Source of the DNA: a virus
DNA length: 42,829 nt
IMG/VR virus record: IMGVR_UViG_3300033553_000698
Coordinates: 1-42,829 of that record
Strand: one strand, 5' to 3'
Part shown: positions 4,271 through 41,419 of the stretch, in pieces
How the letters are laid out: each line of letters begins with the position of its first letter
Position numbering within the stretch: position 1 is the first letter of the stretch
Notes under the pieces: model-generated
The model's input: the letters and a program-made list of their open reading frames with translations, nothing else
Databases searched by the model: none
Told to the model about the DNA's origin: nothing
Position numbers and translations under genes: made by a program

Positions 4271-4919
4271 TTTACAGCCATTAGAATGGCACACTGAACA
4301 CCGAATTGTTAAAGATTTAATTCCTTATGAATTTAATCCTAGAGCAGTTTCAGAAGAAAAAAGACAAAAATTAATTGACAGTATTAAAAAATTCAATTTT
4401 GTTGAAATTCCTGTTATTAATTTAGACAATATTTTAATTGCCGGACATCAAAGAATTTTAGCCATGGTATTTTTAGATCGTGAAACCGAAACTGTTGATG
4501 TTAGGGTGCCAAACCGACAATTAACAGAATTGGAGTTGAAAGAATACAACCTGCGGTCCAATATTTCTATTGGAGATTGGGTTGATGATATGTTGAAAGA
4601 ACATTTTGATGATATTGATTTTGATGCTATTGGTTTGGGAATTGATGAAGGGTTACTTGAGATGTTGGATGAAGAAAAACAATTGACACAATTTGAGGAA
4701 AAATTTAATAAAATCCCGAATGAACCGGTTTATCCTATAGTGGCAAAATACAACGAAAAATATTCAGCTATTATAATTGTGGCCAAAAACATTACCGATT
4801 TAACTTTTTTGCAAACTGTTTTAGATTTAAGTAACGAAGCTTCATACAAAAGTGAGCGTATTGGGCAAACACACGTAATTGATGCTAAAAAATTTCAGGA
4901 GTTATGGGAAAAGAAATAA
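4260..4919 (+). CDS. ParB-like nuclease-domain protein
   Basis: 219 aa. Residues 15-110 are a ParB/sulfiredoxin-fold domain: LIPYEFNPR near 20-28 and GHQR at 62-65, the phosphate-binding motif of the family, followed by the usual helical stretch ELELKEYNLRSN. Residues 150-215 form a second small domain of unknown role. In phages such proteins are linked with DNA modification or nucleotide chemistry; here the next gene is a glycosyltransferase that overlaps it by 16 bases, which supports a joint pathway. There is no ParA and no partition site, so plasmid-type partition is unlikely. Domain call is firm; its substrate is not known. Confidence 0.82.
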   Translation: MKNNLQPLEWHTEHRIVKDLIPYEFNPRAVSEEKRQKLIDSIKKFNFVEIPVINLDNILIAGHQRILAMVFLDRETETVDVRVPNRQLTELELKEYNLRSNISIGDWVDDMLKEHFDDIDFDAIGLGIDEGLLEMLDEEKQLTQFEEKFNKIPNEPVYPIVAKYNEKYSAIIIVAKNITDLTFLQTVLDLSNEASYKSERIGQTHVIDAKKFQELWEKK

Positions 4920-5647
4920 AAATTGTAATTCCGTCACATTTAAGATTTGACCGGGTTAAAACACCAAAGGCAATAGCAAATTGTATTTTATGTGTTCCTG
5001 AAAGTCAGGCCGCTTTGTATAAAGAATACAATCCGGCTACAGAAGTTGTTGCGCATCCCGATAATATTATCGGTTTAACACCAAAAAGGCAATGGATTAT
5101 TGAGCATTTTGGCGATGTTTTTCAGGTTGATGATGATATGATGCAAATGAGCAGGGTTTATACAGGACTGGGAGAACCAACACGCATTCCAAAAAGAATT
5201 GCTTATGATTTGATTCAACAGGCCGGAAACATTGCCAATGACATGGGCGTGTACTTATTTGCGTTTTCCAAGTCACCAATGCCTACAGCTTTTAATCCAT
5301 TGCGCCCGGTTAAATTATCTGGTACCGTAATGGGCGGTGCGTTTGGTTTATTAAGTGGCTCAAAATTGCATTTTAAAACTGATCTAATTTTAACGGAAGA
5401 TTATTGGATAAGTGGTTTAAACGCTCACTTTCATAGAATGGCTTATATAGATGAACGTTTTACCTTTAAATTCAGTAATACATTTGCAAATAAAGGAGGT
5501 TGCGCCAGTTATAGAACTGTTGCAAAAGAATTGGAAGATACGCTAAAACTAAAGCATTATTTTGGTGATGCTGTTCAATTAAAAAAAGACACTCATTTAT
5601 CTAAAGTAAAAATAGAAGGCTCAAGGACGCTAAAAATACCTTACTAG
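4904..5647 (+). CDS. GT-A-type glycosyltransferase (TET-associated-like)
   Basis: 247 aa. The start KIVIPSHLR is the first strand of a GT-A fold; VDDDM at 75-79 is the DXD metal and nucleotide-sugar site; TEDYWIS at 164-170 supplies the probable catalytic acidic residues. The layout matches the phage TET-associated glycosyltransferase family, which adds sugars to modified bases. It sits in an operon with a ParB-like gene. No TET/JBP dioxygenase and no cytosine methylase or base hydroxymethylase was found in the genome, so the acceptor is unclear; it could be a host-supplied base, an adenine derivative or a protein. A strong terminator follows at 5673. Confidence 0.72.
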   Translation: MGKEIKIVIPSHLRFDRVKTPKAIANCILCVPESQAALYKEYNPATEVVAHPDNIIGLTPKRQWIIEHFGDVFQVDDDMMQMSRVYTGLGEPTRIPKRIAYDLIQQAGNIANDMGVYLFAFSKSPMPTAFNPLRPVKLSGTVMGGAFGLLSGSKLHFKTDLILTEDYWISGLNAHFHRMAYIDERFTFKFSNTFANKGGCASYRTVAKELEDTLKLKHYFGDAVQLKKDTHLSKVKIEGSRTLKIPY

Positions 5648-5786: not shown

Positions 5787-6119
5787 ATGAAAGAACAAAC
5801 AGAATTCTTTAAAAAAGCAATCGAAAACAAGAGTAGTTTCGATTTAAAAGATTTATGGAACCACATGAGCCCACTCATAAAAGTTTGGAGTTGGGGAGTT
5901 GAAAAAATTCATTTCTTCGAAAACAAACTTTTAGGACTAAAAGTAAACGGCCATCACTTTACCGGAATTGTATGCATTACTTTAAACGGAAACGACACTT
6001 TTCATATTGATTACTGGCAAGATGGAGTTTTGCTGGATTCAAAAAATGAAATTTATGTAGATCAGTTAATTGATGTAATTGATAAAGATGTTGAATTTAT
6101 AAAATCTTATTCTTTTTAA
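5787..6119 (+). CDS. Hypothetical accessory protein
   Basis: 110 aa with no recognised domain. The N-terminal 40 residues are helical (QTEFFKKAIENKSSFDLKDLW), the rest looks like a small alpha/beta domain with Trp at four positions and a conserved-looking HHFTGIVCITLNGNDTFHIDYW segment. It is the first gene behind promoter element A and is followed after one base by the 50-aa gene. Its place in the accessory region, away from structural genes, suggests a host-takeover, defence or lysogeny role, but nothing in it proves this. Confidence 0.6.
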   Translation: MKEQTEFFKKAIENKSSFDLKDLWNHMSPLIKVWSWGVEKIHFFENKLLGLKVNGHHFTGIVCITLNGNDTFHIDYWQDGVLLDSKNEIYVDQLIDVIDKDVEFIKSYSF

Positions 6120-7877: not shown

Positions 7878-7882
7878 TTATA

Positions 7883-7908
7883 AAAGCCTCAAATGAGGCT
7901 TTTTTTTT
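7883..7908 (+). terminator. Intrinsic terminator before structured RNA
   Basis: AAAGCCTC and GAGGCTTT with loop AAAT, then a run of nine or ten T. It ends the preceding unit and isolates the RNA element that follows. Confidence 0.9.
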
Positions 7909-7915
7909 ATCTTAG
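7908..7915 (+). promoter_or_regulatory. Candidate host-type -7 element for the structured RNA
   Basis: TATCTTAG fits the Bacteroidota -7 pattern TAnnTTTG with one mismatch. Transcription would begin five to seven bases on, at about 7920, which is the first base of the long stem. No good TTTG -33 element was seen, so this is moderate. Confidence 0.4.
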
Positions 7916-7919
7916 CAAC

Positions 7920-8027
7920 GCGAAACATTTTAATGAGTACAAAAGGCAGGAAGATTCCACCCACGTAGGTACAGGTTTTTCCTGTATTTTGTCTTTTGTA
8001 CAAAATGTTTCGCCACCTTACGTGGGT
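7920..8027 (+). ncRNA. Structured, possibly pseudoknotted RNA element
   Basis: Three nested stems are visible: GCGAAACATTTT (7920-7931) with AAAATGTTTCGC (8002-8013), 12 pairs; GTACAAAAG (7937-7945) with CTTTTGTAC (7993-8001), 9 pairs; CAGGAA (7947-7952) with TTCCTG (7979-7984), 6 pairs. The apical loop carries ACCCACGTAGGT (7959-7970), which is complementary to ACCTTACGTGGGT (8015-8027) apart from one extra T. That gives either a pseudoknot or a rival hairpin followed by CTTTT. The element is the leader of the gene at 8046. It could be a riboregulator, a free small RNA or a DNA-level recombination site; it matches no RNA family known to me. Confidence 0.68.
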
Positions 8028-8045
8028 CTTTTAAAACAGAATCTT

Positions 8046-8324
8046 ATGTTAGACACTACTCCTCAAATTACCCAATTCTTAAAAGAGAATTTTAAGCCTT
8101 CTAACTTACTCGAGGCTACTCACAAAATAACTACACACCAGCTGTTAAATTTGCTATTTAATGTGTTTCCAAAAGGTTCTGTCGATGATTATGATTTATA
8201 TCAAATTTTAATATCTTTACAGTACACGCCATTTAGAAATACAATTGAAATTAAAAATTTAGAAACCGAGGAAATAATTAACGAATTATCTTTAGTTTGG
8301 TGTTTGGAAGAATTAGGAACTTAA
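8046..8324 (+). CDS. Hypothetical 92-aa protein behind the structured leader
   Basis: 92 aa from ATG 8046. An upstream extension of the frame starts inside the terminator at 7893 and crosses the RNA stems, so it is not credible as the start. The protein is helical with a Thr- and Leu-rich first half (TPQITQFLKENFKPSNLLEA in part) and an acidic end. No family was recognised. It begins the run of four tightly spaced small genes up to 9278, and its expression should depend on the RNA element before it. Confidence 0.6.
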   Translation: MLDTTPQITQFLKENFKPSNLLEATHKITTHQLLNLLFNVFPKGSVDDYDLYQILISLQYTPFRNTIEIKNLETEEIINELSLVWCLEELGT

Positions 8325-41182: not shown

Positions 41183-41264
41183 TATTAATACTATAGATAT
41201 TATTTATATAACATACTATATATTAAGATTTTAAATAAAAAAAACTCGGTAGGTGCTAGGTATA

Positions 41265-41287
41265 AAAAAGGTAGGTACTAGGTAGGT
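41265..41287. repeat. Inner inverted repeat, left arm
   Basis: Five A, then GGTAGGTACTAGGTAGGT. Perfect complement of the 23 bases at 41324-41346. Confidence 0.88.
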
Positions 41288-41323
41288 GCTTTAAAAAATC
41301 CGAAACCTACCTTTTTTACTGAA

Positions 41324-41346
41324 ACCTACCTAGTACCTACCTTTTT
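41324..41346. repeat. Inner inverted repeat, right arm
   Basis: ACCTACCTAGTACCTACC followed by five T. The 36-base interval between arms has one more CCTACCTTTTTT. Confidence 0.88.
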
Positions 41347-41394
41347 AAAATGGCTTTAATTTATTTATATAACTGATAATCAGTAATATTAGAT

Positions 41395-41419
41395 TAAAAG
41401 TAGGTGAGTAGGTGGTTCT
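41395..41419. repeat. Outer inverted repeat, right arm
   Basis: TAAAAGTAGGTGAGTAGGT, an inserted GGT and TTCT minus one base. Pairs with 41161-41182. Confidence 0.8.

Follow-up and report, generated by a model that had tools for sequence, protein, structure and literature searches.

A conserved structured RNA before a small gene of Bacteroidota phages, best read as a variant of the C4 kind of antisense leader

What is the strongly folded element that lies between a terminator and a small gene in a temperate phage genome, and on what does it act? The stretch of DNA analysed here (the window, 42,829 nucleotides) is the genome of a temperate Bacteroidota phage with head protease, terminase, tape measure, tyrosine integrase and primase genes, and its host group is marine flavobacteria. 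An earlier note had proposed, at 7908-8046, an undescribed structured RNA with pseudoknot-type pairing, transcribed from a host-type promoter and regulating the following 92-aa gene. We find a conserved structured RNA, previously undescribed, and read it most readily as a C4-type antisense leader in a variant form that belongs to Bacteroidota phages. Specifically, we give a probability of roughly 55% to the element being both the 5' leader of the 92-aa gene transcript and a C4-like antisense RNA unit. Elsewhere in the window (4904-5647) lies a gene for a TET-associated glycosyltransferase (PF20691, E 8e-15), which suggests DNA base hypermodification by this phage.

The element and its fold

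On recheck, the stems, pairings and coordinates of the element were all present, as were the terminator, the -7 element and the ATG (Table 1). The outer stem of 12 pairs and the small hairpin of 6 (7970-7975 with 7981-7986) stood as described, while the inner stem, given as 9 pairs, in fact has 12 with one G.U. The loop-to-tail pairing also holds (7959-7969 with 8017-8027, 11 bp including one G.U), but the supposed apical loop is a junction strand before a third hairpin rather than the tip of the nested stems. The outer stems are best read as target strands a1 and b1 paired with antisense segments a' and b', and the pseudoknot as the closing stem of a C4-like RNA. A second tail pairing, absent from the earlier note and forming the outer part of this closing stem, abuts the ATG; it recurs with different sequence in the relatives L045 (p = 0.003) and L004 (p = 0.006), and was not seen in L006, which was checked alongside them.

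Table 1. Features of the leader and its surroundings in the window
Feature	Position	Strand	Basis
Intrinsic terminator of upstream gene, AAAAGCCTCAAATGAGGCTTTTTTTTT	7883-7909	+	sequence
Bacteroidota-type promoter -7 element, TATCTTAG	7908-7915	+	sequence, consensus TAnnTTTG
a1, upstream strand GCGAAACATTTT, pairs with a' (8002-8013)	7920-7931	+	12 bp, perfect
b1, upstream strand GTACAAAAGGCA, pairs with b' (7990-8001)	7937-7948	+	12 bp including one G.U
Closing stem, outer part, AAGATTC, pairs with 8039-8045	7951-7957	+	complementarity, p = 0.016
Closing stem (C4-like), 5' strand; apical loop of the earlier note	7959-7970	+	duplex -19.1 kcal/mol
P2 hairpin, ACAGG TTTTT CCTGT	7971-7985	+	kept in 4 of 4 type 1 members
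P3 hairpin, would carry b' when the 5' strand is absent	7986-8006	+	predicted fold of 7949-8045
b' antisense segment, TGTCTTTTGTAC	7990-8001	+	pairing with b1
a' antisense segment, AAAATGTTTCGC	8002-8013	+	pairing with a1
Closing stem, 3' strand, ACCTTACGTGGGT	8015-8027	+	pairing, type 1 conservation
Outer closing stem, GAATCTT, directly 5' of the ATG	8039-8045	+	complementarity
92-aa gene, putatively controlled by the leader	8046-8324	+	ORF, orthologues, predicted fold

Folding against shuffled controls, proposed earlier as a check, bore the structure out: 7908-8046 has a minimum free energy of -41.7 kcal/mol (z = -4.7), and none of 200 dinucleotide shuffles went as low. No other 140-nt stretch on the + strand of the window is as stable as 7881-8020. 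The second most stable stretch on that strand, at 41221-41400, consists of direct and inverted repeats of AAAAAGGTAGGTACTAGGTAGGT. By itself, the combination of a stem with loop-to-tail pairing is only mildly unusual, as a 10-bp stem with such a pairing of -17 kcal/mol, which occurs a single time in the window, also turned up in 3 of 20 shuffled windows. Thus, conservation has to be the deciding evidence, and we judge the element real because its homologues are conserved and covary.

The consensus TAnnTTTG is that published for the -7 element of Bacteroidota-type promoters. A TAnnTTTG-like box lies 4-12 nt 5' of the first stem in all listed members, consistent with the host-type promoter proposed for the 5' end of the RNA, and transcription is predicted to start from about 7920. 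A terminator lies directly upstream of the RNA in L004, L006 and L054 as well, and none is found there in L045, L010 and L011. The idea that the outer pairing competes with a second terminator found no support: the hairpin before CTTTT has about 4 bp (-4.3 kcal/mol), and a later T-rich stretch forms no clear terminator.

Conservation in two RNA types

Relatives were found through their terminase and by pattern scans, and L045 through a protein profile of the 92-aa family. Four members carry what we call type 1: the window, L004 (whose locus is identical in a prophage of Polaribacter filamentus ATCC 700397, L017), L006 (the element of Tenacibaculum sp. MAR_2009_124, L025) and L045. In all four the RNA precedes the orthologous gene, shortly after a TAnnTTTG-like box and shortly before the ATG. 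Compensatory changes in homologues, the test that the earlier note had set for its pseudoknot-type RNA, were found in this type and in the second type described below. Across the type 1 alignment (A6), 95.9% of cells are paired and six pairs change on both sides, all of them in the inner stem b1:b', where six of nine counted pairs vary in this way; the covariation score was reached in 0 of 500 shuffles. P2 has added terminal base pairs in three of the four. The strand a1 is near-invariant across these members and L013, and the loop-to-tail pairing is retained in all four. As a1:a' and the tail pairing hardly vary, covariation neither supports nor refutes them, and the type 1 case rests on b1:b'.

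With the 5' strand removed, all type 1 RNAs are predicted to form a closing stem and the hairpins P2 and P3, which leaves TGTTTCGC, complementary to a1, as a free strand. For the window RNA this predicted three-helix fold has z = -5.7, and the free strand that links P3 with the closing stem would be the 3' part of a'. The complete leader is predicted to favour the a1b1 hairpin by about 12 kcal/mol.

Five further orthologues of the 92-aa gene (L010, L011, L046, L054 and L055) have another RNA of the same topology in the same place. This type 2 layout consists of an outer stem, a hairpin whose loop is always GUAA (GNRA class), and a tail pairing. A model of it found three extra copies before other small genes (L002 4985-5114, L010 20196-20327 and L079), and we call the five leaders before the orthologous gene type 2a. 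Covariation across the eight type 2 RNAs is strong: 94% of cells are paired, two-sided changes affect 18 of 30 pairs (40 cells), and 0 of 500 shuffles did as well. Although the alignment was fitted to a model without the tail (closing) stem, this stem is 97% paired with four two-sided pairs. Most type 2 RNAs without their 5' strand are likewise predicted to fold as a closing stem, two hairpins and a free strand. In type 2a, the strand GGCAGG has alternative partners in the inner strand or the tail, and L046 has changed GGCAGG and both partner sites consistently, a single event.

Three type 2 copies repeat their upstream strand at the beginning of the downstream ORF, where the repeat covers the start codon and first codons: the second RNAs of L002 (a 19-nt exact repeat) and L010, and the RNA of L079, with p = 0.000, 0.013 and 0.014, respectively. 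The second RNA of L010 is followed by a 73-aa ORF and then by a KilA-N protein (PF04383, 4.9e-16) that matches the PHROG anti-repressor Ant weakly. With C4-like RNA, ORF and KilA-N gene in a row, L010 20196-20944 looks like a complete operon of the P1 immI type, here in a phage of Bacteroidota. The peptides RQELGSGNARQ (L010 20219-20401) and RQEFGSSNARQ (L002 5006-5158) run in frame through the hairpin GGUAGC-GNRA-GCCC. This frame (RQE...) is broken in L045, L055 and others, and a conserved leader peptide was therefore rejected.

No Rfam model matched the window or five relatives at gathering score, and models of the C4 clan (CL00128) did not match the window RNA even at E 10. The earlier statement that no known family matches holds for the window by sequence, but its closest relatives point to the C4 clan. 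Matches by blastn of the element to phages and plasmids were at chance level, and the exact tail-loop pattern was not found in viral contigs. An R3 search across 326 Flavobacteriales genomes returned none, and an R2 match in G499 and an R1 match in G117 were terminator-like and were discarded. A recurrent block, TCCTATT...TGACAATTGCCA(C/T)TTTT(G/A), occurs near start codons before TerS or the preceding gene in L004, L007-L011 and L045, and is possibly a shared phage promoter or operator.

Gene partner, mechanism and alternatives

The 92-aa protein has orthologues in 10 other phages or prophages, and has no match in Pfam or PHROG and no significant match in the PDB. Its AlphaFold2 model (pLDDT 89.7) has a helix-strand-helix-helix-hairpin topology; Foldseek gave no significant match, and we read this order, together with weak Foldseek matches, as a probable winged helix. 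The type of RNA and the protein do not go together. The RNA of L045 is type 1, yet the L045 protein is nearest to those linked to type 2 (54-62% versus 40-49%; support 89/82), and the L002 protein, 88% identical to that of the window, comes without such a leader. Thus, exchange of the RNA is independent of its gene. Autoregulation by the encoded protein suits this pattern less well than a module of the immunity type does, although the pattern does not prove such a module. Upstream of its orthologue, L002 has a different 74-nt hairpin (5865-5938, GCATTGTATTTAAC/GTTAAATACATTGC). On inspection, the distant orthologues in L038-L041 had no such leader.

We propose that transcription would start near 7920 and read into the 92-aa gene, and that the leader would have two alternative folds: the long a1b1:a'b' hairpin and, after removal or displacement of the 5' strand, a C4-like three-helix RNA. 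In the second fold, the antisense segments and closing stem would prevent initiation of translation at the downstream ORF in cis. The RNA may also reach the transcript of a superinfecting relative in trans, in the way that C4 acts on icd/ant in P1 and P7. Translation control, trans action and a role in immunity are suggested by analogy with that system. To our knowledge, flavobacteria lack Shine-Dalgarno sequences. Translation in F. johnsoniae is tuned by mRNA structure, according to one report (PMC6847099). Where initiation depends on mRNA structure and not on a Shine-Dalgarno sequence, covering the start region is a plausible means of control. Predicted accessibility near the ATG is similar in the two alternative folds (0.45 versus 0.53), which leaves a cis effect on the window's own gene uncertain.

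A leader switch acting purely in cis is a less probable alternative. Here the 5' hairpin and a pseudoknot made of the closing stem and A:A' would form either jointly or as alternatives and so adjust how much of the 92-aa gene is translated. The signal would be the encoded protein, a metabolite, temperature or the phage cycle, with no action in trans. This switch would explain why every one of the nine type 1 and type 2 leaders identified through orthologues stands before a member of one gene family and in one orientation, why type 1 A:A' pairing comes within 0-4 nt of the ATG in the window, L004 and L045, and why L046 altered GGCAGG together with its inner-strand and tail partners; the predicted winged-helix topology of the protein is also in keeping with it. 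However, the mismatches of RNA and protein in L045 and L002 argue against tight co-evolution of protein and leader, and type 2 RNAs precede unrelated genes too. An element at L013 6083-6215, which combines the outer stem of type 1, GCGAAACATT, with a UUCG hairpin and a separate closing stem, is moreover divergent from the gene.

Lying opposite in strand to all neighbouring genes and sharing the same a1/a', this L013 element may be a free-standing C4-like RNA, and it is one reason to consider a stand-alone small RNA gene with host or phage targets elsewhere, for which the place before the 92-aa gene would be incidental. The RNA's own promoter and the T-rich stretch 3' of the closing stem also favour such a gene, and C4-derived free small RNAs exist in Acinetobacter (PMC5320573). 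We consider it improbable, since the gene that follows in cis is the same for nine leaders, gene starts in the window and the phages searched yielded no convincing trans target for type 1 or type 2a, and the model matches L013 only weakly (20 bits, E 0.043). The least probable reading, to which we attach very little weight, is a DNA element: a transposon end, attC-type recombination site, MITE or operator. The near-palindromic outer arms and the GCGAAACATT...AATGTTTCGC repeats common to many unrelated contigs recall such elements, and of the 15 genome contigs that showed the pattern of the outer stem, 13 were unrelated repeats or chance occurrences. Those contig repeats are without promoter, inner stem and tail pairing, whereas the phage copies are single, divergent in sequence, covary pair by pair including G.U as expected of RNA, and stand in the same place before the same gene; the match to transposon ends or attC sites that the earlier note had named as a refutation was accordingly not found.

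If the C4-like antisense leader is the correct reading, control of this kind would extend to another phylum, the Bacteroidota, and would offer a first handle on lysogeny control in these marine flavobacterial phages as well as a test case for antisense blocking of initiation where Shine-Dalgarno sites are lacking. It would also name a small family of winged-helix-like phage genes as the probable regulated partner of the RNA. More tentatively, Bacteroidota temperate phages may possess C4-type RNA immunity. The antisense RNA would then be a module that phages exchange independently of its target gene, and, in a phylum without Shine-Dalgarno sequences, its pairing with start codons would determine the specificity of superinfection.

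Comparison with known systems

The leaders of phage T4 gene 32 and of ribosomal proteins S4 and S15 contain pseudoknots used in autoregulation. They resemble the window RNA in having pseudoknot-type pairing 5' of a start codon, and differ in that here RNA type and protein phylogeny disagree and upstream copies of the target exist.

Each of the five type 2 RNAs that were tested has c4-2 (RF02944) as its best match among 4227 Rfam families, in the same register, with scores of 28.0, 24.5, 30.4, 29.2 and 21.5 bits (all below the gathering score of 41). Type 2 RNAs share with c4-2 the hairpin GGUAGC-GNRA-GCCC and the closing stem, but remain sub-threshold, and type 1, represented by the window, has no match. 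A model built from the eight type 2 RNAs misses P1 C4, so common descent with C4 is not shown and convergence is possible. For type 1, the link to C4 is an analogy of architecture and structure.

C4 antisense RNA, which is processed at its 5' side by RNase P and acts in trans on translation, controls lysogeny and immunity of phages P1 and P7 through icd/ant. As a control we used the deposited P1 annotation, in which the order is promoter, a1, b1, C4 RNA, a2, b2, icd (73 aa) and ant1; in its C4 RNA the loop of P3 contains b', and a' is the strand that joins P3 to the closing stem. Besides the E. coli phages P1 and P7, for which it was described, C4 RNA has been reported from Proteobacteria and phages (PMC2864571, PMC5320573), and its processing and its targeting through a' and b' have been characterized (PMC5320573).

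Several differences from P1/P7 C4 (RF01695) and c4-a1b1 (RF03163) stand out. The window RNA has no match to the sequence models, its host phylum is Bacteroidota, and spacing is much shorter, with a1b1 less than about 50 nt from the closing stem and pairing as a long hairpin. No a2b2 copy was found at the window's own ORF (p 0.997), and TGCGAAAC lies 5' of the ATG in L006. Targets in the relatives cover the start codon and first codons rather than a Shine-Dalgarno site. The likeness lies in arrangement. Nested complementarity of a1 and b1 with a' and b' is found in the window as in the P1 control, and the three-helix C4 fold is predicted for the window RNA, with the closing stem backed by type 2 covariation. 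Of a small ORF with an antirepressor gene behind it, the window has the ORF, and no antirepressor was recognized in the window. Additionally, the window shares with P1 and P7 a promoter, a1 followed by b1, the closing stem, P2, P3 with b', a' as the junction strand and a small downstream ORF, to which the type 2 relatives add a2b2 at the ORF and a KilA-N gene.
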